Below are positions 1,568 to 44,300 of a stretch of DNA of 64,000 nt, piece by piece. The translations under genes and the position numbers were made by a program. This stretch comes from Thiosocius teredinicola. GTDB lineage: Bacteria > Pseudomonadota > Gammaproteobacteria > Chromatiales > Chromatiaceae. The stretch is taken from the NCBI RefSeq assembly GCF_002009425.1, contig NZ_CP019936.1, positions 3,211,297 through 3,275,296 of the forward strand, given 5' to 3'. The notes below the pieces were generated by a model that did no database searches, was not told the DNA's origin, and saw nothing but the letters and a program-made list of their open reading frames with translations. How positions within the stretch are numbered: the first letter of the stretch is position 1; every line of letters starts with the position of its first letter.

Positions 1568-3046
1568 CTAAGAGCAGCTCCCTTCGGCATTGCACACTTT
1601 TCCGACGTGGCTGGCGGCCTGCGGCGTGCCCGACGCATCGACGCGATCCGCCGTGCGTTCGACTGCCATCGGCACCGTGACCTGAGTACGCGTCATGTCG
1701 GTGATCTTCACGTCTACCTTTCCTTCGCCGACCAGTTCGTCAACCAAGCCTTGCGGGAAAGGCCAGTAGCGCAGCGTGGCCTTCGCTTTCAGCGGCCCGA
1801 CGGCACCTTCCGGCACGATGAATGCGAACACCGCAGACGCTTTACCGTTCGGCAGAATCCGGTTGTCGGAAATGATGTGGGTCACATCCCAGACCGCGTA
1901 CTCGACTTCGTTGCCGTCCTTGTCGCCGAGATGGACACGGAAGTTGCGCGTGCCGGGCTCGGTGCGGCCGTTACGTACCTGTCCGAGACGGTAGACCGAC
2001 TTGCCGGTGGCATCGCTTACTTCGAAGTCGATCCATACCTCGCGCCCTTCCGGAAAGCCGGTCGGCAGTTTGTGACCGGCGCCGGTGTTGTGAACCTCGA
2101 CAGTGAAGTTGGCGAGTTCACCCGGGGCCAACGATTGTGGTTGCTCGACAATCTCAATCTGCGCGGCGCTCTGCAGCATGCGGCTCCCCATCTGCGCTGC
2201 CTCGTCGTCACCGAAATGCGATAGCAACGTCGCGTTGGCGCCGGCAAACCAATGCGATGCGACGTCGTCGCGTTCCGGACCCATGATCGCTGCCTTGCCC
2301 TTGAAGCCAGCCATGTGACACGACTGGCAATCGATACCCTTCACGGCGTACTCGCTTTCCAGCCACTCGTCATAGGTGCGTTCGATGGCAACCCCGTTGA
2401 AGGGATGTGTCACGTTATGGCAGGTGCCGCAGAAATCGCTGCGGGTATGCAGTTCGGAGTAGACGGTTTCGTGATACGGCGACTCGGCATCCGATCGCGG
2501 CCCGTACTTGGTGGGCCGCCCGCCGCGCGAACGCGGCGCCAGCACGTAGGCGCCGTTGTCGATGCCGGTGCGCGCATTGATGTTGTGGCAGGCCTCGCAA
2601 TCCACACCTGGCATGGGATGCGACTCAGCGGTTTCTTCAACCGACGCGCGATTGACCGCCGAGGTGATCTTGCCGGTCGTCAGCCCTACCGGCGTGTGAC
2701 AACCGGTACAGAAGTTATCTACCGCGCCATCGGTTGCCTCGCTGGCTTTCTTCAGCAGCGCCCGGTAGATCGGATCGTCCCAGGACCTGGCCATGGCCGA
2801 GGTTCGCCACTGGGCGTAGATCTCCTGGTGGCAGGTGCCGCAGACCTCGGCGTCGTCGAACATGCCGCTGCTCAGTACGGCATTGTCACTGGTGTTGGCG
2901 CGGTGCGGAAAGAATGGCAGTCGCTCAGGCGTATCCAGCAATGCCTGTTTGTCAGGACCCAACCATTTGGAATTAGCGTCGGCGAATGCGACACCTTGCA
3001 GAAATACAACGAGTGCCCCTGCGAGGCACAAAGCTACCTTGCTCAT
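1568..3046 (-). CDS. Five-haem periplasmic cytochrome c
   Basis: A 492-residue exported cytochrome. The first ~24 residues form a signal peptide ending near FADA. Five CXXCH haem-binding motifs follow at residues 69-73, 113-117, 150-154, 206-210 and 240-244. Their spacing and the PGVDCEACH and GIDCQSCHMAG contexts resemble the cytochrome c554/multihaem family. The C-terminal half (about 285-465) has no haem motif and looks like a beta-sandwich domain (NFTVEVHNTGAGHKLPTGFP). Its role is presumably electron transfer in the periplasm. The start has AAGGA upstream. A sigma70-type promoter lies at 3081-3109, so it may be expressed apart from the kinase gene that ends at 3263. The adjacent peroxidase gene suggests a peroxide-linked redox pair, which is inference. 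Confidence 0.87.
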   Translation of the reverse strand: MSKVALCLAGALVVFLQGVAFADANSKWLGPDKQALLDTPERLPFFPHRANTSDNAVLSSGMFDDAEVCGTCHQEIYAQWRTSAMARSWDDPIYRALLKKASEATDGAVDNFCTGCHTPVGLTTGKITSAVNRASVEETAESHPMPGVDCEACHNINARTGIDNGAYVLAPRSRGGRPTKYGPRSDAESPYHETVYSELHTRSDFCGTCHNVTHPFNGVAIERTYDEWLESEYAVKGIDCQSCHMAGFKGKAAIMGPERDDVASHWFAGANATLLSHFGDDEAAQMGSRMLQSAAQIEIVEQPQSLAPGELANFTVEVHNTGAGHKLPTGFPEGREVWIDFEVSDATGKSVYRLGQVRNGRTEPGTRNFRVHLGDKDGNEVEYAVWDVTHIISDNRILPNGKASAVFAFIVPEGAVGPLKAKATLRYWPFPQGLVDELVGEGKVDVKITDMTRTQVTVPMAVERTADRVDASGTPQAASHVGKVCNAEGSCS

Positions 3047-3080
3047 TGTTCTTCATCCTTGAAGAAAACCTGTCTTGGGA

Positions 3081-3109
3081 AAAATAGTCCCAGCCTGTCG
3101 CTTCGTCAA
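3081..3109 (-). promoter_or_regulatory. Sigma70-type promoter of the cytochrome/peroxidase genes
   Basis: Read on the minus strand, TTGACG (3109-3104) and TATTTT (3086-3081) are separated by exactly 17 bp and lie about 35 bp upstream of the cytochrome start codon. This fits a housekeeping promoter with a short leader. Found by eye. Confidence 0.5.
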
Positions 3110-3216
3110 CCTGACTGCAGATAGAAATTTTTTGGGCGACGTCTGCCGCTATCCAATGCCACTTATATCGGCAACAGTCGTTGTTGACGTGATTCAGGCT
3201 TCAGCGAAGGCGCGAG

Positions 3217-3249
3217 CTGGTCTGCGATGAATCGGAATTCGCAGACCAG
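3217..3249 (-). terminator. Strong hairpin after the hydrogenase-kinase operon
   Basis: A perfect 11-bp inverted repeat, CTGGTCTGCGA / TCGCAGACCAG, with an 11-nt loop begins about 14 bp beyond the kinase stop codon. There is no U-tract, so it may act as a transcript-end stabiliser or a factor-assisted terminator. Confidence 0.5.
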
Positions 3250-3262
3250 AGGGTCAGCATCG

Positions 3263-5389
3263 TCAAAAGAGAAAGGCGTGTTTCTTCGGCGCCACCTTGC
3301 CTTCACCCGAGGTTGCTCGCGGCACCTCTACGATGAACGTGGCGCCACCTTCCTCGTTGTTGGACGCGTGAATCGTTCCCTTGTGGCGGGTAACGATCTC
3401 CCGACAGATGGCCAGTCCCAACCCGGTGCCACCGGCGCCGGTTTTGGTCTTGGAACTCTGCTCGAACTTGTCGAACACGCTCTCGAGTTCGTCCTCGGGT
3501 ATGCCCGGTCCCTGGTCGGCGATACTGAACCGCAGCGCAGCCGTATCGGCGGCATCGTCGAACCTGATCAAGATGCGACTGTCATGCGGCGTGAACTTGA
3601 TCGCGTTGGACAGCAAGTTGAGTATCACCTGCGAGAACTGGTCCGGGTCGACTTCCGCCATGCGGTTGTCGGTCGCCGTCTGCACGTCCACCTGTATCGA
3701 CTTGGAAGCAATCAGGCCGTCCAACTGGCGACGCAGACTTTCTTCCAGCTCCACGATATCGGTCGGCTTGGGATCCGGCGGTTGGTGACCGGCTTCGAGC
3801 TTTGCCAGATCGAGCAGATCATTGACCATGCGCGACAAGCGACTGCCACTTTCCTCGATACGTTGGAAATACGAGCCGAGCTTTTCCAACGGAGCCTCGT
3901 TGAGCCTCTTGTTGCCGAAACCCGCGAACGAAAGTATCGCGTGCAGCGGTGTTCGAAACTCGTGCGAGACGTTCGCAATGAACTCGCTCTTCATCCGGTT
4001 GGCACGCTCGGCCTCTTCCTTCGCCTTGAGCAGATCCAAGGTGCGCTCTTCGACCATCTCGCTCAAATGGTCGCGGTGCATCCGTAACTCGTCTTCCATC
4101 TGGCGGCGCTCAGTGATGTCTTTCGCGGTACCGCGATAACCTTGAAATACGCCTTGACGATCGTAAACCGGCTTGCCGCTTACGCTCATCCAGACCAGGT
4201 CCGACTCGGCATGAAAGCGGCACTCGAAATCGCGGAACGGACGTTGCGCCGCAATATCGTCGAGGTGTTCACGCCACGGTATCGCCTTGGAGTCGAGATC
4301 TTCGGGCGGCGCGAACTCTTTGGGATGGTGACCCGGGGACAAAGGTGAAGATGCCGAATTCGTCAACGACGTACCTTCGGCGGTGCCGAACAAGATGTGA
4401 GATTCGTCTGTCTGCCAGAAGAAATCGGATGACACCTGCGAGTAGTCGCGGAAGCGCTTTTCGCTTTCGATCAACGCCTGCTCGCGCTGACGCAAGGAAG
4501 TCACATCCGAACCGACAATCACGGCGCCTTCGAGCTTGCCCGCCCTGTCGTAGATCGGTGAGCCGCGCAACAGGAACCGGGGGTGCGGCATGGGATGCTT
4601 TTTCGGTTGGAGGTTGACCTCCAGTTGCATGCTGTCCTCGCCCACCGTCCGACGAAACAACACCAATCCTTCAGGGTAAGAGGAACCGTTGCCGGTAACG
4701 GAAAGCTCGGCGAGTTGCTGTGGCTCGATGAGCCTGTCGGCCGACTGGCCTTCGAGATCCTGCGCCGTATAACCCAGCGCCTTGCAGCCGGCTGCATTGA
4801 CCTGCATCACCATCCCGCGCGCATCCAGCACAACGAGCAAGCCATCCATGGTATCGACCACGCGGTTGACGAACGCCGACAGGCGGCGCTGCTCATCGCT
4901 TTGTCGTTGCAAGGCATTCGACTTCTGCGACAACTCGTCGAGCACGTGCTCGACCTGGTCGGAAACATTGAGCACCTGGCTTTGCAGAGCGGTATTGGCC
5001 TGGCGTAGTGAGATCACTTCCTGGCGCAGACGTACCAGCTCGTCATCTGACCGTCCTTCCACGAAGCTACCCGGAGGAATAATGAAGAACTCACCGGCAA
5101 TCTCGTTTACCCGGTAGTTCTCGTTGTTCTCGTCCATCGGAACCAATTGACCATGCGCCGGGCAGACCAACTTGCCGGTCTCATCCATTTCGCTGTTCGC
5201 GAGTGACACACCCTCATGCGGACAATTCGCGGGTACCGCAATCAGTTCGTCCTTGTGGTGCACGATGAGTACGTGGCGCGATGCTGAATCTCCCGGCAGC
5301 GTGACATGCCCGCACCATCGATCGTCCCGCCCTTCGACGGCGCGCACCTGTTGTACCGGTATGAGGCGGGTCGCCGGCGTATTAGTCAT
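3263..5389 (-). CDS. Soluble Rieske-PAS-PAS histidine kinase linked to hydrogenase
   Basis: A 708-residue sensor kinase with an unusual N-terminal Rieske [2Fe-2S] domain (about 10-105). Its cluster ligands are visible as C56-P-H58 and C76-PA-H79. A coiled coil (about 113-170) leads to a PAS domain (about 170-300) and a second PAS domain (about 305-430, ending DITERRQ). Then come a coiled coil, the HisKA domain with phospho-acceptor His476 in SHEFRTP, and the ATPase domain (N-box NLLSNAIKF near 591, DQGPGIP near 625, GGTGLGLA near 653). No membrane segment is present, so it acts in the cytoplasm. Its ATG overlaps the stop of the hydrogenase protease gene by 8 bp (ATGACTAA), showing translational coupling. 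The inferred role is to receive electrons from the neighbouring hydrogenase through the Rieske cluster and convert H2 availability into phosphorylation. No response regulator lies nearby. Confidence 0.88.
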   Translation of the reverse strand: MTNTPATRLIPVQQVRAVEGRDDRWCGHVTLPGDSASRHVLIVHHKDELIAVPANCPHEGVSLANSEMDETGKLVCPAHGQLVPMDENNENYRVNEIAGEFFIIPPGSFVEGRSDDELVRLRQEVISLRQANTALQSQVLNVSDQVEHVLDELSQKSNALQRQSDEQRRLSAFVNRVVDTMDGLLVVLDARGMVMQVNAAGCKALGYTAQDLEGQSADRLIEPQQLAELSVTGNGSSYPEGLVLFRRTVGEDSMQLEVNLQPKKHPMPHPRFLLRGSPIYDRAGKLEGAVIVGSDVTSLRQREQALIESEKRFRDYSQVSSDFFWQTDESHILFGTAEGTSLTNSASSPLSPGHHPKEFAPPEDLDSKAIPWREHLDDIAAQRPFRDFECRFHAESDLVWMSVSGKPVYDRQGVFQGYRGTAKDITERRQMEDELRMHRDHLSEMVEERTLDLLKAKEEAERANRMKSEFIANVSHEFRTPLHAILSFAGFGNKRLNEAPLEKLGSYFQRIEESGSRLSRMVNDLLDLAKLEAGHQPPDPKPTDIVELEESLRRQLDGLIASKSIQVDVQTATDNRMAEVDPDQFSQVILNLLSNAIKFTPHDSRILIRFDDAADTAALRFSIADQGPGIPEDELESVFDKFEQSSKTKTGAGGTGLGLAICREIVTRHKGTIHASNNEEGGATFIVEVPRATSGEGKVAPKKHAFLF

Positions 5390-5840
5390 TGTTCAGCCAC
5401 CGCACGACCTGCTCTACGACAAGCGGCACCGCCGCTGCCACACATGGCGTCAGGCCTGGTTCAAATGCGGCCACGCGTTCCACTTCGGCACCGATCACGT
5501 CGACGTCGGGCAACGACGGCAGTGCCGAAGGCAACAGCTCGAGTACCGCACCGACACCCGCGCCGTGACCGCTCAGGCTTTGCTCGACAAGCACGTCATC
5601 TCGGTTGAGCGCGTGCACCGAGCCGGCCGGCCCGTAGCCTTGCAGCGCGTCTATGACCAGCGCCCGTTCGCAATTGGCGAAGCAGTTGATCGCGCTCAGC
5701 CCCGAAACATCAGCACGGAAAAGCCGAACCGAATCGGGTAGCTGCCTGGCGTCGAGCGCGGCGAACACCGCCGGTCCGAATCCGTCGTCGCCATGAAGTT
5801 CATTGCCGAAACAGATCACGTGGCTGCGCTCAAACGCCAT
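5382..5840 (-). CDS. [NiFe]-hydrogenase maturation protease (HyaD/HycI family)
   Basis: A 152-residue endopeptidase of the HyaD/HupD/HycI family, which trims the C-terminal tail of the hydrogenase large subunit after nickel insertion. The nickel-sensing signature GNELHGDDGFG is near the N-terminus, and the conserved Asp (near DVSGLS) and His (SLSGHGAG) ligands follow. The start was placed at the ATG at 5840, which has AGAAGGTG upstream and overlaps the large-subunit stop by 11 bp. An upstream in-frame start at 5867 would add nine unlikely residues. The large subunit next door keeps a cleavable tail, so a cognate protease makes sense. It lies in one operon with both subunits and the Rieske kinase. 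Confidence 0.88.
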   Translation of the reverse strand: MAFERSHVICFGNELHGDDGFGPAVFAALDARQLPDSVRLFRADVSGLSAINCFANCERALVIDALQGYGPAGSVHALNRDDVLVEQSLSGHGAGVGAVLELLPSALPSLPDVDVIGAEVERVAAFEPGLTPCVAAAVPLVVEQVVRWLNND

Positions 5841-7365
5841 AACGCACCTTCTTGCCGGCGCCGACAAAGTGCACCGTGCATACCAGGCAGGGATCGTGTG
5901 AACGCACCACGTGACTGATCTCGATGGGGTTGTCTATGTCGGTCAGCGGCAACCCGATAACGCTTTGTTCCCAATGTCCGTGGCGACCGGCGCTGTCTTT
6001 CGGCGAGGCATTCCACGCAGTCGGCGTCACGATTTGATAGCGGGTAATTTCACCGTTTCGCACCTGCACCCAGTGCCCCAAGGTACCTCTTGCAGCCTGT
6101 ACGAAGCCGAACCCATCACCGTCGTCCAGACTCCCATCAGCGGGCGCGAGATAGTGCGGATTGTTCAGTTCCTGGCTCAAGGCTTTCAATTGCGCGCGCA
6201 TCAGGTCGAGCAACACACTCGCCCGGCGCAGACGGGCGAACTGGCGCAACCAGGTATTGGCACCTTCTTTCTTCAGCAGATCGACGATGAGTGCATCACC
6301 GCCGGTCAGCAATTCAGCCAAAGGCCCGGTTTCCACCACCCGGTCGTCATAGCGCGGCGCCTTGGCCCAGCTGTAGCGATCCGACTCCGGCTGATAGTCC
6401 GGCACCGTCTCCCCTTCGAACGGATGCCGCCCGTCCGGATACGGGCGATACCAGGAATGACGAACATGTTCGGTGATGAGCTCCGGGCGGAATGCCTCAA
6501 TCTTGTGTGTGGCGCCGTCGTAGACGCCGCCCGCTAGCAAGGTGCGCTGTTCGCCGTAAGGCGCCTGCCATTCGACAGGGTCGTAGTGCGCGCCGGCACT
6601 GAGAAACTGATCGGTGCCTGCGCCGTAGGTGTGCAGCCCCTGATCGCGTGCAAACCGGGTAAACAGGCCGAGCGCCGTATCGCGGTGTGCCGGTTCGTCG
6701 ACCCACTCGAGAAACCGCTCGGCCGTGTCGAGAGACAGCCAGTTGTCCAGCGAGTCGCCGACCACTTCTTTCTCGAACCATCGGACGGCTTTGTCGACGA
6801 TCTCGCGGCAATCGATGATGTCGCTGACCGTCGCCGGCCGCGTCACCCCACCCGGAATCATGTAGGTCGAATGTGGCCACTGGCCGCCGAAGATGGCAAC
6901 GATCTCGACCAGGGTGCGCGACACGTCCAGTGCAGACAGAACCACACTGCCCTGCAACGGCTTGAAGGCCTTTTCCAGGGCCGGGGCAAGCGCATGATCG
7001 GCATACCGCGGATTGAGCAGGTCCGGCGCGAAAAACAAGAACGTCTGCCGGATGTCGCTCTGTACGTTCTCCGCCATCAGGCAGAGGTTTCGAATAATGG
7101 TTGCATGCGCCGGCACCGGCACATCGTTCATTCTTTCCAAGGCGAGCGCCGTAGTGAACAAGTGGGCCGTACCGCAGATGCCGCAGACCCTGGGCGTGAT
7201 CACCAAGGCGTCCTTCGGTGCACGACCGATCAGCAACTGCTCGAAGCCGCGAAACAGCGTACCGATGCAGCGTGCATCGGCCACGCGGTCGCCTTCGAGG
7301 TCTACCTGGAACTCGAGGTCACCCTCGACACGATTGAGTTCGATGTTGACGGTCTTTCTGGCCAT
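5830..7365 (-). CDS. [NiFe]-hydrogenase large subunit
   Basis: The 511-residue catalytic subunit that binds the NiFe(CN)2CO centre. The N-terminal metal site is RVCGICGTAH (Cys61 and Cys64) and the C-terminal site is DPCLVCTVH (Cys493 and Cys496). Twelve residues (FVGAGKKVRYGV) follow the last His, so the protein has a tail to be cleaved, unlike many HoxC/HupV-type regulatory subunits, which end at that His. The ATG at 7365 was chosen; a GTG two codons upstream is possible. It starts 11 bp after the small-subunit stop. There is no export signal. Overall similarity to cyanobacterial/HupL-type enzymes suggests group 2, but whether it is an uptake enzyme or a sensor cannot be fixed without phylogeny. 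Confidence 0.93.
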   Translation of the reverse strand: MARKTVNIELNRVEGDLEFQVDLEGDRVADARCIGTLFRGFEQLLIGRAPKDALVITPRVCGICGTAHLFTTALALERMNDVPVPAHATIIRNLCLMAENVQSDIRQTFLFFAPDLLNPRYADHALAPALEKAFKPLQGSVVLSALDVSRTLVEIVAIFGGQWPHSTYMIPGGVTRPATVSDIIDCREIVDKAVRWFEKEVVGDSLDNWLSLDTAERFLEWVDEPAHRDTALGLFTRFARDQGLHTYGAGTDQFLSAGAHYDPVEWQAPYGEQRTLLAGGVYDGATHKIEAFRPELITEHVRHSWYRPYPDGRHPFEGETVPDYQPESDRYSWAKAPRYDDRVVETGPLAELLTGGDALIVDLLKKEGANTWLRQFARLRRASVLLDLMRAQLKALSQELNNPHYLAPADGSLDDGDGFGFVQAARGTLGHWVQVRNGEITRYQIVTPTAWNASPKDSAGRHGHWEQSVIGLPLTDIDNPIEISHVVRSHDPCLVCTVHFVGAGKKVRYGV

Positions 7366-7376
7366 ACCCACCCGGA

Positions 7377-8318
7377 TCAGGTGTCCATTTTCTTGTCGCG
7401 GACCCGCATAGGTGCAGCGGCCTGGGCGAGATTCTTGTAGGCCATGTAGTGGCCCCGAGAAACACCCAGTGGAAGCGTGACCGGCACTTCGCCCATCTTC
7501 TCGGTTCGGAACAGGTCACCGTTCTTCGGGAAATTCGGCGAGGTGCATCCAAAGCATGGCACACCGGCCCGCGTCTTGCTGCTGCGCTGGTTCCACAGCT
7601 CACTGTTGCAATTGGCCATCGTCGTCGGCCCCTGACAACCGAGGTTGAAGAACATGCAGGCGCGGCCACCCAATTCGGTGTCTTCCACGTCGTACTCGTG
7701 ATACTCGTTGCGCGTGCAACCCTGGTGCACCATCTGGTTGAAGAAGGCGGTCGGCCGGTTGTGCGCGTCGAGTTCGACCGGCAGCCCCTGCGCCAGCATC
7801 GCCAGGGTGCGGGTAATCGTCAGCGGGTGCGTCGGGCAGCCACCGAGGTTGATGACGGGCATCCCGGATTTGGATCGCCACGCGGTATCGAACATGCCGC
7901 CGGCCGTGTCGCGGGTGAACTGCATGCCGGTACAGTCCGTCGGGTTTGGCGGCGCCGCCGGGATCCCACCGAAGGCCGCGCAAGAACCGACGGCGAGAAC
8001 GGCCTGTGCCTGCCCGGCCAAAGCCCGCACGATGTCGATCTTGGCTCGGCCACGAAAGCTGTCGAACATGCCGGTGCCGTAGGGGCCGGTGATGAGGCTG
8101 CCTTCGACACACAGGATGTCGAGCTCGCGCTCGCCCTTTTCGATCTGCTCGATCAACTTCGCCAGGTGGCTGGTCGGTTCGGTACTGATCGACGGGTGCC
8201 AAAGCACCTGGATATCGCCGTTCGCGACCAGCGACTCCAGCGATGGTCCGTGCGCATTGAGTAGTGACATGGTGTCCCCACTACAGGCACCTGTTTGCAG
8301 CCACAACATAGTTGCCAT
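7377..8318 (-). CDS. [NiFe]-hydrogenase small subunit, cytoplasmic group 2-like
   Basis: The 313-residue iron-sulfur subunit that passes electrons from the active site outward. Cluster ligands are visible in LQTGACSGDT, GSCAAFGG, NLGGCPTHP, QGCTRNEYH, NLGCQGPT and VPCFGCTSP. The protein lacks the twin-arginine signal and C-terminal membrane anchor of membrane-bound uptake enzymes, so the complex is soluble. The LWLQTGACSG opening and the retained FGCTSP motif resemble cyanobacterial HupS and other group 2 subunits. The ATG at 8318 is preceded by GGAGG at ideal spacing; a GTG at 8360 is less likely. It is the first gene of the four-gene operon and lies about 265 bp downstream of the CDF exporter gene, leaving room for a promoter. 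Confidence 0.92.
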   Translation of the reverse strand: MATMLWLQTGACSGDTMSLLNAHGPSLESLVANGDIQVLWHPSISTEPTSHLAKLIEQIEKGERELDILCVEGSLITGPYGTGMFDSFRGRAKIDIVRALAGQAQAVLAVGSCAAFGGIPAAPPNPTDCTGMQFTRDTAGGMFDTAWRSKSGMPVINLGGCPTHPLTITRTLAMLAQGLPVELDAHNRPTAFFNQMVHQGCTRNEYHEYDVEDTELGGRACMFFNLGCQGPTTMANCNSELWNQRSSKTRAGVPCFGCTSPNFPKNGDLFRTEKMGEVPVTLPLGVSRGHYMAYKNLAQAAAPMRVRDKKMDT

Positions 8319-15269: not shown

Positions 15270-16490
15270 CTAACCACCGAAATCGTCCAGCAGGATGTTG
15301 TCTTTTTCGACGCCCAGGTCGCCGAGCATCGTGATCACCGCCGAGCTCATCACCGGCGGGCCACACATGTAGTACTCGCAATCCTCCGGTGCCGGATGTT
15401 CCTTGAGATGGTTTTCCTTCAGTACATTGTGAATGAAGCCGGTATAGCCTTCCCAGTTGTCGTCGGGCAACGGGTCGGATAGGGCCACATGCCATTCGAA
15501 GTTATCGCACTCGGCGGCCAGCTTGTCGAAGTCCTCCTGATAGAAGATCTCGCGCTTGCTGCGCGCACCGTACCAATAGGTGATCTTGCGCTGACTGGCC
15601 AGGCGCTTGAGCTGGTCGAAGATGTGCGAGCGCATCGGCGCCATGCCGGCACCACCGCCGACGAACACCATCTCCGCCTGCGTGTCCTTGGCGAAGAACT
15701 CGCCGAACGGCCCCGAGATGGTCACCTTGTCGCCCGGCTTCAGGTTGAAGATGTACGACGACATGATGCCCGGCGGCGCATCCGGTTGGTCGGGTGGCGG
15801 CGTGGCGATGCGCACGTTGAGCATGATGATACCCTTCTCGTCCGGGTAGTTCGCCATCGAGTAGGCACGCAGCGTCTCTTCCTCGCACACCGATTCGAAT
15901 CGCCACAGGTCGAAACGATCCCAGTCGTCACGGAAGCGCTCGGGGATATCGAAATCCTTGTAGCTGACGCGATGCGGCGGACATTCGATCTGAATAAAGC
16001 CGCCGGCGCGGAACTGCACGTCTTCGCCCTCGGGCAGCTCGAGCACCAATTCCTTGATGAAGGTCGACACACTGTCGTTGGAACGCACGGTGCATTGCCA
16101 TTTCTTGACGCCGAACACCTCGCGCGGCACCTCGACCTTCATCGGCTGCTTGACGCCCACCTGGCAGGCCAAGCGATAACCGGCCTCGGCGTCGCGCCGA
16201 TTGATGTGCGAGGCCTCGGTCGGCAACAGCTCGCCGCCGCCTTCGAGTACCTTCACCCGGCACTGGCCGCAGGTACCGCCACCGCCGCAGGCCGACGAGA
16301 TGTACAGATGGTCGGTGGCCAGCGCGCCGAGCAGCTTCGGCCCGACCGGAGAGGCAATGTCGCGCTCGCCGTTGACGTTGATCGTAACGTTGCCGCTCGG
16401 CACCAGCTTGCTGCGCGCGAACAGGATCAACGCAACCAGTGACAACACAACCAGCGTGAAGGCGACGACGCCAAGACTGATCTCAAACAT
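15270..16490 (-). CDS. nqrF: Na+-NQR subunit F, NADH-oxidising
   Basis: A 406-residue subunit that accepts electrons from NADH. An N-terminal membrane helix (6-25) is followed by a plant-type [2Fe-2S] ferredoxin domain with [10 protein letters not shown] near residue 70 and the fourth Cys at LACQVG near 111. The FAD domain has RAYSMANYP near 210 and the NADH-binding domain has [16 protein letters not shown] near 275 and YYMCGPP near 378. The length equals the family norm. It is the last structural gene of the nqr operon, starting 10 bp after nqrE. Confidence 0.96.
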
Positions 16491-16499
16491 AGCGCCCCC

Positions 16500-17107
<608 letters not shown>

Positions 17108-17108
<1 letters not shown>

Positions 17109-17767
17109 CAGCTGTGCTCCGTCTGTCCATCGGCGATGCGGAAGTCCGGCGCCTCTTTCTGCTTCGGCCGCCACACACGGATGCCCCAGATCATCAGGCC
17201 GATGATGAAGAACGCGCCGGGCGCCAGCAGCATCAGACCGTTGGGCTTGTACCAGCCGCCGTTGCTGACCAGCGGCAGGATCTCGTAGCCAAGCAGGGTG
17301 CCGGCACCGAACAACTCACGTACGGCGGCAACGCTGATCAGGATTGCGCTGTAACCGGCGCCATGACCGAGTGCGTCGAGCAGGCTCGGCCACGGCGGGT
17401 TCTGCGTGGCGAATGCCTCGGCGCGGCCGAGCACGATACAGTTGGTGATGATCAGGCCGACGAATACCGACAGCTGTTTGCTCAGCTCATAGGCATAGGC
17501 CTTGAGTATCTGATCGACCACGATAACCAGCGAGGCGATGATCGTCATCTGGATGATGATGCGGATGCTGCTCGGCATGTGGTTGCGGATCAGGCTGATG
17601 ATCACGTTCGATCCCATCAGCACCACCGTCAGGCCGATCGACATGATGATCGCCGGCGCCAGCTGCGTGGTGACCGCCAGCGCCGAACAGATGCCGAGAA
17701 TCTGCAGCGTGATCGGGTTGTTGTCGACGATCGGCGTAACAACGAGCTTTTTGAACTGTGATGCCAT
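17108..17767 (-). CDS. nqrD: Na+-NQR subunit D
   Basis: A 219-residue integral membrane subunit, six helices, with [17 protein letters not shown] carrying the Cys of the iron site shared with NqrE. The N-terminal part ([23 protein letters not shown]) is diagnostic for NqrD as opposed to RnfE. It starts 3 bp after the nqrC stop in the nqrABCDEF operon. Confidence 0.96.
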
Positions 17768-17770
17768 CGA

Positions 17771-18598
17771 TCAGTCCTCCGTGCCTTTGCGCACCCGGTC
17801 GAGGTAGGGGCCGTAGCCCATGTCACCCATCCAGAAACGCACGAGATTGGTCACACCGTTGCTGGTCAGGGTCGCACCCGACAGGCTGTCGACCTGGTAT
17901 TCGATGTTTGCCGAACTCGGGTTGACGCCACCCTTGACCAGTTCGAAGCGCGGTTTGCCGCTTTCGTCGGCGACCTGCTTGCCGGTCCAGGTCGCCTGCC
18001 ACTTGGGATTGGCCACCTCGCCGCCCAGGCCGGCGGTTTCCTGCTGGTCGTAGAAGCTCACGTCGCGCACCGTGCGACCGTCCGGCTCAAGTGCGAGCAG
18101 GCCATACATCGTCGACCACAAACCGTAGCCATAGATCGGCAGGATCATGCCATCGAGCTTGTCGCCGTCGCGCAGCAGGTAGACCGGCATGATCTTCGAA
18201 CGCGTACGGATGCGCGCCAGGTCCTGCTCGCCGGTCAGGCTCAACGCCAGTTCCGGATCATTGGCTGCCTTGCGCATGTCGAAGTCACCGAACGCGATCT
18301 GGTCCGTATAGTTGCCGGATTCGAGATCGACCAGGCGTGCATCGAGATTGGCAAACTTGGCCTCGATGTCGTCACCCGCCTGAAACAGCCCGGCGACCTT
18401 GAGGATCTCGCGCTTGAGCGCCAGCGATTCGTTGCGCTCCTGCATCGGGCGCAGGCCGACAGCTGCAGCGCTGACGATCAAGGAGCAGACCAGGCACATC
18501 ACGACCGCAACGGCGACCACCTTGCGTGGATCGGAATTGGGCAATGCAAACACGGCAAACGGACCGCCGGCCGCATTGTTGGTGTCGGAATCAGACAT
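17771..18598 (-). CDS. nqrC: Na+-NQR subunit C, covalent flavin
   Basis: A 275-residue subunit with one N-terminal membrane helix (about 27-48) and a periplasmic flavin-binding domain. The FMN is joined by phosphoester to Thr in the [10 protein letters not shown] motif near residue 245. The ATG at 18598 overlaps the nqrB stop by 8 bp and gives the usual N-terminus; an in-frame start 13 codons upstream lies well inside nqrB. It belongs to the nqr operon. Confidence 0.95.
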
Positions 18599-19802
18599 TG
18601 CGCTGCGCCCTCCTGCGAATGTTCGATTGCACGACAAACCAATCGATAACCGGGGCGAACAGGTTGCCGAACAGCACCGCGAGCATCATGCCCTCCGGGA
18701 ACGCCGGATTGATCACGCGGATCATCACGACCATCAGGCCGATCAACGCACCGTAGATCCATTTTCCGGTGTTGGTCATCGCTGCCGACACCGGGTCGGT
18801 CGCCATGTACACCAGCGCGAACATGTAACCGCCGAGCACCAGGTGCCAGTACCAGGGCATGGCGAACAGCGGATTGGTATCGCTGCCGATCAGGTTGAAC
18901 AACCAGGTCATGCCGACCATGCCGACCAGCACGCCGGCCATGATCCGCCACGAGGCGATCTTGGTGTACAACAGCATCGCCGCACCGAACAGACAGGCCA
19001 GCGCCGAGGTCTCGCCGATCGAACCGGGGATAAAGCCGAAGAATGCCTGACTCCATTCAAAACCGGCCGCCTGCACCGCATCGATGCCGCCTTCGGCAGC
19101 CAGCGTCAGCGGGGTTGCACCGGTGTAGCCGTCGACCGCCGTCCACACCGCGTTGCCGGAGATTTCGGCCGGATAGGCGAAGAACAGAAAGGCGCGGCCG
19201 GTCAGTGCCGGGTTGAGGAAGTTCTTGCCGGTGCCACCGAATACCTCTTTGCCGATCACCACGCCGAACGAGATACCGAGTGCGACCTGCCACAAGGGGA
19301 TGGTCGGCGGCAACGTCAGCGAAAACAGGATCGAGGTCACGAAGAAACCTTCGTTGACCTCGTGACCGCGCACGATGGCGAAGATCACCTCCCAGATACC
19401 GCCGACGATAAAGGTGACCAAGTAGATCGGTAGCCAGTACGACGCGCCGAGCAGCAGGTTGTCCCACCAGCTATCCGGGTTGTTGCCGGCGCCGAACAAC
19501 GCCAGCAGGCTGCCGCGGAAGCCCTCGATCTGCTCGATGCCCATCGTCGCCATCGCCGAGTTGGCCTGGAAACCGACGTTGAACATACCGATGAAAGCGC
19601 ACGGCATCACGGCGATCCACACCGCGATCATCACGCGCTTCAGGTCGATCGCGTCGCGCACATGCGGTGCGGTACGGGTAACGGCCGAAGGCGAATACAG
19701 GAAGGTATCCACCATTTCATACAGCGCGCCAAACTTTTCGAGTTTGCCGCCACGCAGAAAATGGCGTTCGTTGCGGTCAAGAAACTTGCGTAGACCTTTC
19801 AT
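18591..19802 (-). CDS. nqrB: Na+-NQR subunit B, covalent flavin and Na+ pathway
   Basis: A 403-residue membrane subunit with about ten helices. It carries riboflavin and a covalently bound FMN; the attachment motif GYTGATPLT lies near residue 235. The N-terminal part ([16 protein letters not shown]) and [19 protein letters not shown] are characteristic. ATGA overlap joins its start to the nqrA stop. It is the main Na+-conducting subunit in the known enzyme. Confidence 0.96.
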
Positions 19803-21157
19803 TGGTTTTCCTTCCAGATCTCATGCAGATTGCGCTGCAGGATCGGTCCGAAATCGTGTTTGCCGGTATCGACGAAACTGCACAGCGCCAGATCTTCTTC
19901 ATCCAGTTCGAGGCAACCGAGCGCTTCGGCGGTCTCGGTATCGTCGACCACCAGGGCGCGCAGCAGCTGGGTCGGCAGGATGTCGAGCGGCATCACGTTT
20001 TCGTAAAGGCCCAACGGCACCATCGCGCGCGGGCTGCCGTTCTGCGAGGTATGCAGCGGAAAGCCGACACGTTTGACCAGGCTCGACAGGAAGGCGCGGG
20101 TCGCTGAGAACTTGTTCTTGCCGGGCGACACCCAGCCAAGAAACTCGCGCTGCCTGCCCTCTTCGATGACCGTGATCTGGTTGTGGAATCGCCCGAGAAA
20201 CGCGGTATTGCCCACGGCATGCTTGCCGTTGAGGATCGAACCGGAGATCACGCGCAGCTCGGGCTTGGTATCGATGTTGCCGAGCACCACGTCATTGGTG
20301 CTCACGCCCATCAGGGTGCGAACCAGGCGTGGCTCGTGCACGCCGGTACCGGCCAGCGCGACGACGCGCTCGGGATTCAACCGGCCCGTGGTGAATAGGC
20401 GACCGACGGCAATCACGTCCTGGTAGCCGATGTGCCACACCAGCCGGTTGATGTTGACCGGGTGCAGAAAGTGAATGTGCGTACCGACCAGGCCCGCCGG
20501 ATGCGGGCCGGCAAACTCCGCGACCTCGACGCGTTCGAGTGTCGGCACATCGATCTGTGCACCGGCGGCGCGGCATACATAGGTCTTGCCTTCGGTCAGC
20601 TTGCGCAACACCCGCAGGCCGTTGGCGAAGGCATCACCGGCCGCTGCGATGACGACCGCAGGGTCGGGGGCCAGCGGATTGGTATCGATCGCCGTAACGA
20701 ACAGCGCCTCGGGTTTCTGGTCGGGCAGCGCGACCATCGTGAACGGTCGGGTGCGCAGGCCTAGCCACAGGCCCGAAGCCAGCAGGTTGGCGTGAACCTG
20801 TTCGATGCTCAGGTCATCCAAGGCAGACGCATCGTACTGCTCGAAGGTTTCTTCTTCATCGCCCTCCACCCTGATCACTATCGTCTCGATGACGCGCTTG
20901 TGACCGCGGTGGATAGCCTCGACGACACCGGCTGCCGGTGCGGTACCGACGACCTCCGGATAGGCCTTGCCGCGGTACAACACCTGGCCGCGTTTAACCC
21001 GGTCGCCGACGGCGACTTCCAGGCTTGGCAGCTTCTTGACGCCCACATAGTCGTAGCCGAGCAAAGCCACCCGGCTCGGCGCAGGCGCGTCTTCAATTGT
21101 CTGGCGAGGTTCGCCGGACAAAGGGATCTGCAGGCCTTTTTTCAGCGTAATCAGCAT
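19799..21157 (-). CDS. nqrA: Na+-NQR subunit A
   Basis: A 452-residue peripheral subunit on the cytoplasmic side, implicated in quinone reduction. The opening [17 protein letters not shown] matches the family start, so the ATG at 21157 was chosen over a frame extension of 25 codons. Other typical stretches are [26 protein letters not shown] and [30 protein letters not shown]. It is the first gene of the operon. The ribosome binding site is weak. A 10-bp palindrome lies 70 bp upstream (21227-21236). Confidence 0.96.
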
Positions 21158-21593
21158 GATGGATTGATGCAGTGCAAAAACAGATGCAATCCTATCGTCA
21201 TGCCCAAGCCAATTAAAAGGCGTCATAGGCATGCCTTATTCCTAATTCGATTAAGGCTAGACTATTGGTGGAATTCGAGTGTGACGCGCTTGAGTGCGAA
21301 AGTTTTTTGGGGTTTAGGCACGCGCAACAGCGGCCGGAGTTCGCAGGTTGTCGGCAATTGCGTCGCGCAATCAGTGACATACCGGATGGGCAATCGCTCT
21401 ACCGCGGAGCTCTCCTCGCCTGCCGCCTACGCTGGCGCCGCTGCGACAGAACCATTGTCCGTCGAATGTCATTACGACATAACGGCATGATTTCCGTGTA
21501 CAGAGCGCGTGTTAGATCGCGACGACGACCGACGCGAACGCCGGTCTGAAGCGCAAGACAGCAGATTCCCAAGACGAGCGCCGTCGACAAAAA
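21158..21593. other. nqr operon upstream region
   Basis: No gene is seen. The part next to nqrA is AT-rich and must hold the operon promoter. The perfect palindrome AGGCATGCCT at 21227-21236 could be an operator. Nothing recognisable was found in 21300-21590. Confidence 0.4.
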
Positions 21594-41087: not shown

Positions 41088-42299
41088 TGCAAGGAAGCGT
41101 CTTTTTATTGATTTTTTTCAATAGGTTATCGATTCTTGGAGAGTCACCGGAAAAGCATGGAAAACGGCCGGATCAGCGATGGCGCACGATTGTGCTCAAT
41201 CGGCACAGCGCCTGTGACACATGGTTGTCACATCTCATCGGGCGGGCGCCGGCGTGTTGGCGGGAACTGATAGAAACGACGCTCAGACACGCCGTTGGAT
41301 ACGCGAAAGTTGACGAAGCGGGTCTTTGTCATGGCGCGCGCAACAGACACGACGACGCTGCCATCTAATGATCATGCAATGCCTGACAGGCATCGACGAA
41401 GTGACTTGAGACGGTGTGAAGCACGCGCTTGCAGTCGCGCCTTGCACCGGATCAAACCAACCGGTTACCCGCGAACCGCAGTTTTAAGCAACTGAAGCAT
41501 TCTGCGTCACATCGCTCAGAACTGTCGCCATCAGCGACACCCATCCGCGGTCCGGACGATGACGCCGCGAGACTACGCGTGCTCAGAACCTCTGCGTTCA
41601 CGCTGTCGAGGCAGACGAGAGCAAGGTCGGACGTCGTCTCGGCAGCGATCCGCGCCTGCGCAAAGCCGCACGGCTACGCGATGGTTCAAACATTGCAATC
41701 AGACGAGGACGCTCGTCGAGCAGCTTGATCCCGGTGGCCGTGTCCAGAGGTGATCGCTGCGGACGCGCAGGCGAACATGCACCAAGCGTCGACGCATGGC
41801 TGGCAGACATGCGGCGTGAATACTGCTTGTGCATACAGAACGAACACCATGACGTACGGCCGCTTCGCTTGGGGCAGACCGGTATGCCGCGCCTAACAGG
41901 CGAGTTCGCATCGCAGGGTTGAATCTGTAGCGCAAGCGGCGGTGCCACCTTCGCCTCGACCGTTTTCAACCAAAGACACAGGAGCAACTTGCATACCACA
42001 CAATCGAAAAACTGAAACTCGTTTAGCCGTTGATACCGTCTGATCGCGAAATGACAGATCCGGATATAGCCGCAACTGCTGATGACTAGGGGACTTTTAG
42101 CGCAAGCGCCAATCTTTGGGCAGCACTGAGGCGCGCGCTAATGCTCCCGCATCGGCCAGTCACCGAAGCCGCCGTTTCAAATGCTCGGTGTGCTGTCTAT
42201 GTGTTTCGGATGCGTCAATCCCGATACAACGACACATATAACAACACCTCAAACCAATAACCTTCGACCCAAAGTAGGTTGATGGAGGAGACAGAGACG
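41088..42299. other. 1.2-kb non-coding region before the sigma54 activator
   Basis: No frame on either strand gives recognisable protein, and no RNA gene is seen. The region lies between the divergent porin promoter and the activator gene. It is long enough for distal activator-binding sites and for one or more small RNAs, but I identified none. Confidence 0.4.

Positions 42300-44300
<2,001 letters not shown>

Follow-up and report, generated by a model that had tools for sequence, protein, structure and literature searches.

Soluble [NiFe] hydrogenases tied to a PAS histidine kinase are known from the group 2b sensors, HoxBC with HoxJ and HupUV with HupT. The cytoplasmic electron acceptor of the classical sensor has been called "yet unknown" (PMC5665086). 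HydDB lists another group-2 class, 2c, as "Diguanylate cyclase-linked (putative)", which "may sense H2" (PMC5037454). In group 2a, the Huc hydrogenase has a Rieske-type partner in HucE, a separate NifU-Rieske protein that serves respiration; HucE carries a Rieske motif and is required for H2 uptake, and Rieske centres above about -150 mV have been proposed as suitable acceptors for 2a enzymes (PMC6883350). A first-pass annotation of the DNA studied here had stated that Rieske-type proteins accompany some group 1h and 2a hydrogenases, which is correct for HucE but not for the group 1h protein HhyE, which has CxxC pairs (PMC6883350). Coupling of a hydrogenase to a kinase is also the idea behind the sensory [FeFe] hydrogenases of HydDB class C1 (histidine kinase-linked, putative), although that enzyme family is unrelated.

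The window, meaning the whole stretch of 64,000 nucleotides analyzed here, contains a tightly spaced operon on the minus strand (8318-3263) that runs from a hydrogenase small subunit through the large subunit and a maturation protease to a cytoplasmic kinase. An 11-bp gap is followed by overlaps of 11 and 8 bp, and both the open reading frames and the homologue-supported starts agree with the arrangement of four genes in one direction given in the first-pass annotation. All domains of the four proteins score above the Pfam cut-offs. The features are as follows.

7377..8318, minus strand: [NiFe]-hydrogenase small subunit, 313 aa, no Tat signal (Pfam Oxidored_q6 and NiFe_hyd_SSU_C)
8274..8276, minus strand: codon of Asp15 of the small subunit, at the proximal-cluster position (alignment)
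5830..7365, minus strand: [NiFe]-hydrogenase large subunit (Pfam NiFeSe_Hases, 288 bits; tree)
5833..5868, minus strand: C-terminal tail FVGAGKKVRYGV of the large subunit, after DPCLVCTVH (sequence comparison)
5382..5840, minus strand: hydrogenase maturation protease, HycI family (Pfam, 38.7 bits; NCBIfam TIGR00072, 96 bits)
3263..5389, minus strand: cytoplasmic sensor histidine kinase, 708 aa (Pfam HATPase_c, HisKA, PAS and Rieske)
5075..5359, minus strand: Rieske domain of the kinase, aa 11-105, with ligands C56, H58, C76 and H79 (profile, alignment, model)
4850..5047, minus strand: single long helix (coil) of the kinase, aa 115-180 (AlphaFold model; alignment with Rieske-less relatives)
4499..4849, minus strand: first PAS domain of the kinase, aa 181-297 (Pfam; model; fold search)
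3788..3994, minus strand: HisKA domain of the kinase, H-box SHEFRTP (Pfam, 68 bits)
3314..3649, minus strand: HATPase_c domain of the kinase (Pfam, 106 bits)

The kinase thus reads Rieske-coil-PAS-PAS-HisKA-HATPase and has both the HisKA phospho-acceptor and the HATPase_c domain of a sensor histidine kinase. The group 2b systems have no Rieske domain, and they also differ in having an adjacent response regulator. We found no response regulator among the window ORFs scanned with profiles, nor among the downstream translated ORFs, which were read without a profile; a GAF-sigma54 regulator at 42279-44300 was considered for this role and shows no receiver domain. About 217 bp downstream of the operon and on the kinase strand lies a multihaem cytochrome c gene (c554/ExtKL-like, 1568-3046), and genes of a Na+-translocating NADH:quinone reductase (NqrA, NqrB and NqrF-like) occupy 15270-21232.

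The small subunit lacks a signal-peptide extension, and its nearest solved chain is HucS (E 2.7e-84), which makes Huc the nearest solved hydrogenase. Past its ligand motif the large subunit retains 12 residues, a cleavable tail that the operon's own protease is predicted to remove. All six group 2b large subunits compared end at the His of this motif with no tail, in line with the earlier remark that a tail and a dedicated protease distinguish this enzyme from the classical sensors. Large-subunit matches with "stops inside" were considered as split or selenocysteine genes and proved to be HupV ending at DPCMVCTVH.

A search of 142, 210 and 398 genomes and a plasmid collection yielded 14 further relatives of the large subunit with 43-59% identity. 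In the maximum-likelihood tree, which the first-pass annotation had suggested as a check, these relatives and the window sequence form one clade of 15 group-2 [NiFe] hydrogenases (98/96). This clade is sister to group 2a (93/95) and not inside it, group 2a itself being held together at 100/100; the HupV/HoxC sequences of group 2b fall outside the clade on a branch of their own (100/99). Membership in group 2b is ruled out by this separate branch and by the retained tail, and membership in group 2a by the sister position and by the motifs, which are DPC rather than DSC at the ligand motif and Asp/His/Lys rather than Asn/Gln/Lys at the cluster positions. The clade fits the putative, cyclic-di-GMP-linked group 2c of HydDB, a match made by class description only. 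Several members do stand beside PAS-GGDEF(-EAL) proteins, the cyclic-di-GMP enzymes being linked to the hydrogenase in G488, G585, G651 (our genome labels) and the cultured Ideonella dechloratans, whereas the partner of the window hydrogenase is a histidine kinase with a Rieske domain.

Alignment of the small subunits shows Asp at the proximal-cluster position in 15 of 15 clade members, as against Cys in groups 2b and 1d and Asn in group 2a. The medial-cluster position has Lys, as in group 2a, and the distal-cluster position keeps the His that is Gln in group 2a. In Huc, each of the three clusters is a high-potential [3Fe-4S] cluster, a property associated with its fourth residue (PMC10017518), and since the clade shares the Lys of Huc, its medial cluster at least is probably [3Fe-4S]. 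One likeness to group 2b concerns the positions of HoxC Ile62 and Phe110, the residues that narrow the gas channel in the regulatory hydrogenase: these are Ile and Phe in the window and likewise in most of its subclade, with Met in G585.

Of the 15 loci, 14 carry a coil-PAS signalling protein, either as the product of the next gene or in one chain with the protease, and these proteins show at least four kinds of output. The output is HK in the window, HK-REC in five relatives (G010, G620, G695, G600b and G661), a protease-PAS-HK-REC fusion in three (G056, G459 and G562), GGDEF in G651, and GGDEF-EAL in G488, G585 and the Ideonella dechloratans plasmid NZ_CP088082; at locus L061 the signalling protein breaks off within PAS. 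At the fifteenth locus (L086), a PAS-GAF hybrid kinase is encoded two genes upstream of the small-subunit gene. At L087, the stretch from large subunit to kinase showed no protease. The three relatives with the unusual in-frame protease-kinase fusion, whose kinase part is PAS-HisKA-HATPase-receiver, have it at L043 5683-7971, L060 430-2994 and L062 7039-9306 (minus strand). On the plasmid of Ideonella dechloratans CCUG 30977, a cultured strain, the clade hydrogenase is followed by the protease and the PAS-GGDEF-EAL protein (L095 11035-16736); the small subunit carries no annotation there beyond NADH:ubiquinone oxidoreductase. Given the fit to group 2c and the signalling protein that follows in 14 of 15 loci, H2 sensing is very likely, and we are confident that the window operon is a cytoplasmic H2-sensing signalling module. 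In this respect it belongs to a known kind of system, a sensory [NiFe] hydrogenase with its signalling protein. Elsewhere the genome encodes a classical HupUV-HupT-HupR system (L045), along with further [NiFe] enzymes, so the window system probably controls something else.

The distinguishing part of this operon is the Rieske domain. Its ligands are intact (CPH at residues 56-58, CPAH at 76-79), and the domain reaches 27.7 bits in the whole kinase and 31.7 bits on its own, above the Pfam cut-off of 20.3; the earlier description of a kinase with both intact Rieske ligands and an intact phospho-acceptor is borne out. Since a fold search with a Rieske-coil-PAS model gave PAS proteins only among the matches listed, the Rieske domain was modelled alone (pLDDT 82.7), and essentially all top PDB matches were then Rieske proteins. 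The Foldseek E-values were weak (best 0.027), while the top VIA matches were Rieske proteins with Z of 5-8 (maximum 8.4); the model resembles Rieske ferredoxins and Rieske oxygenases. A profile built from three Rieske sequences retrieves Rieske proteins from the PDB with a best E of 7e-5. In the larger AlphaFold model, the Rieske domain passes directly into one continuous helix (115-180) that enters PAS. Because the ligands are intact, the fold is that of a Rieske protein and a distant genome holds a second such fusion, we consider the Rieske domain of the kinase to be real, and it likely binds a [2Fe-2S] cluster.

That second fusion is in G585, where a Rieske-coil-PAS-GGDEF-EAL protein keeps all four ligands (CPH...CQHH). 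A third Rieske, in G493, is a separate small ORF that has lost one ligand, the last His having become Tyr (CTH...CPRY). This ORF lies between the protease and PAS genes (L061 3696-4007); in G488 (L063), a member of the same genus, a Rieske is missing from this position. These three copies all belong to one eight-member subclade, the other five members of which have none, and they share one site, between protease and coil. Only the window and G585 copies are intact and fused. Since the same Rieske-coil-PAS part has a different output in G585, the Rieske domain travels with the hydrogenase-facing end of the protein and not with the kinase. The first-pass annotation had named absence of the Rieske-kinase/hydrogenase link from related genomes as grounds for refutation. 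Outside the window, the link recurs once intact, with GGDEF-EAL in place of a kinase, and once degenerate, as a separate gene; it is absent from the other 12 members.

In a tree of Rieske sequences, a short domain for which deep nodes are weak, the three clade copies form one group (89/90) that excludes HucE and every other Rieske protein included. Descent from HucE is not supported by this grouping. In alignment, none of the three has the proline-loop part that usually follows the second ligand pair. We favour a single origin of the clade Rieske with later loss, repeated gain being the less favoured reading. Beyond the clade, the nearest relative found is a stand-alone Rieske protein of 110 aa and the same short type (CPH...CPSH; L112 386-718, G720). 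Two further ORFs on its 4-kb contig look, by eye, receiver-like (2731-3333) and Hpt-like (3401-3850). A search for Rieske-sensor fusions covered 369 and 398 broadly drawn genomes and 210 of the own order or family. The matches looked at, most of the small ones in one scan being judged by ORF length only, were small Rieske proteins and unrelated enzymes, and the survey of Rieske-HisKA architectures proposed in the first-pass annotation gave no further Rieske-sensor fusion among them. The Rieske-sensor fusions found in the genomes scanned all lie beside a hydrogenase of this clade.

Our preferred reading of how the Rieske domain takes part in sensing is a relay. After maturation by its own protease, the hydrogenase would dock on the kinase at the latter's N-terminal helix/PAS part and oxidize H2; electrons would most likely leave the small subunit through the distal cluster and reduce the Rieske [2Fe-2S] centre, which would sit atop the 66-residue signalling helix, and its reduction or reoxidation would alter kinase activity towards an unlinked response regulator. 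We judge the chances to be evenly balanced that the Rieske domain lies on the electron path from H2. A bolder reading, to which we give somewhat less than even odds, goes further: the acceptor of this sensory [NiFe] hydrogenase may be a built-in Rieske domain, in a histidine kinase in one lineage and in a cyclic-di-GMP enzyme in another, whose one-electron reduction directly switches the output. The relay is favoured by the ligands kept in both fused copies despite two different outputs, by the position at the hydrogenase-facing end, by the similarity of the small subunit to HucS and by the medial Lys shared with Huc. The separate clade with its recurrent signalling partners, the common grouping and site of the three Rieske copies, and the predicted fold running straight into the helix point the same way, as do Rieske potentials that could in principle suit such an enzyme (PMC6883350) and the acceptor still missing for the classical sensor (PMC5665086). 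Against the relay stand the small number of intact cases, the decaying copy in G493 and the response regulator not found nearby. Moreover, 12 of the 15 clade members have no Rieske beside hydrogenase and coil-PAS, and signalling therefore presumably works without one. With most relatives combining the hydrogenase with a Rieske-less coil-PAS module, the domain is not essential to the clade and cannot be its universal acceptor. The H2-sensing Rieske relay put forward in the first-pass annotation is plausible. What has held up of it is a soluble hydrogenase genetically tied to signalling, separate from the HupUV/HoxBC branch and with tail and protease retained, but not a general role of the Rieske domain.

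The main rival, which we regard as somewhat unlikely, is direct protein-protein contact, as proposed for HoxBC-HoxJ. Here the coil-PAS part would read the hydrogenase through its redox state or its conformation, and the Rieske domain would be a second, independent input (O2, superoxide or cellular redox) in an AND or NOT gate. The wide occurrence of coil-PAS (14 of 15) beside only three Rieske copies, one degenerate, suits this account, as does the likeness, Rieske domain aside, between clade proteins that carry one and those that do not; the coil and PAS of G488 and Ideonella align directly with those of the window. It explains less well why the Rieske domain lies at the end adjoining the hydrogenase gene and why, among the genomes scanned, such fusions were met only next to this hydrogenase.

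Another possibility, which we find improbable, is that the Rieske domain is a mere electron sink or docking part that passes electrons to a soluble acceptor, the kinase sensing turnover and not the Rieske redox state. Sensing of H2 is currently held to depend on its being oxidized continuously (PMC10073562); this and the precedent of HucE in group 2a (PMC6883350) speak for such a sink, for which direct fusion to the signalling helix would nevertheless be unnecessary. Least credible is a catabolic hydrogenase merely regulated by the kinase, with the Rieske domain as a decaying relic, since this would agree with the lost ligand in G493 and the many Rieske-less relatives but not with the four ligands retained in both fused copies, the recurring signalling genes and the failure to recognise any respiratory partner subunit beside the structural genes in the loci examined.

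In the open-licence papers searched, we found no description of the Rieske-kinase/hydrogenase architecture, of a Rieske domain built into a signalling protein, of the proximal-cluster Asp together with a tail and own protease, or of protease-kinase fusions. The window system offers a spectroscopically visible candidate acceptor that is covalently attached to the kinase, and its Rieske-less relatives are natural controls, so that the question of the acceptor becomes directly testable. The relative on the plasmid of the cultured Ideonella dechloratans provides a laboratory entry to the Rieske-less version. Such a system may show how H2 sensors hand on the electron.
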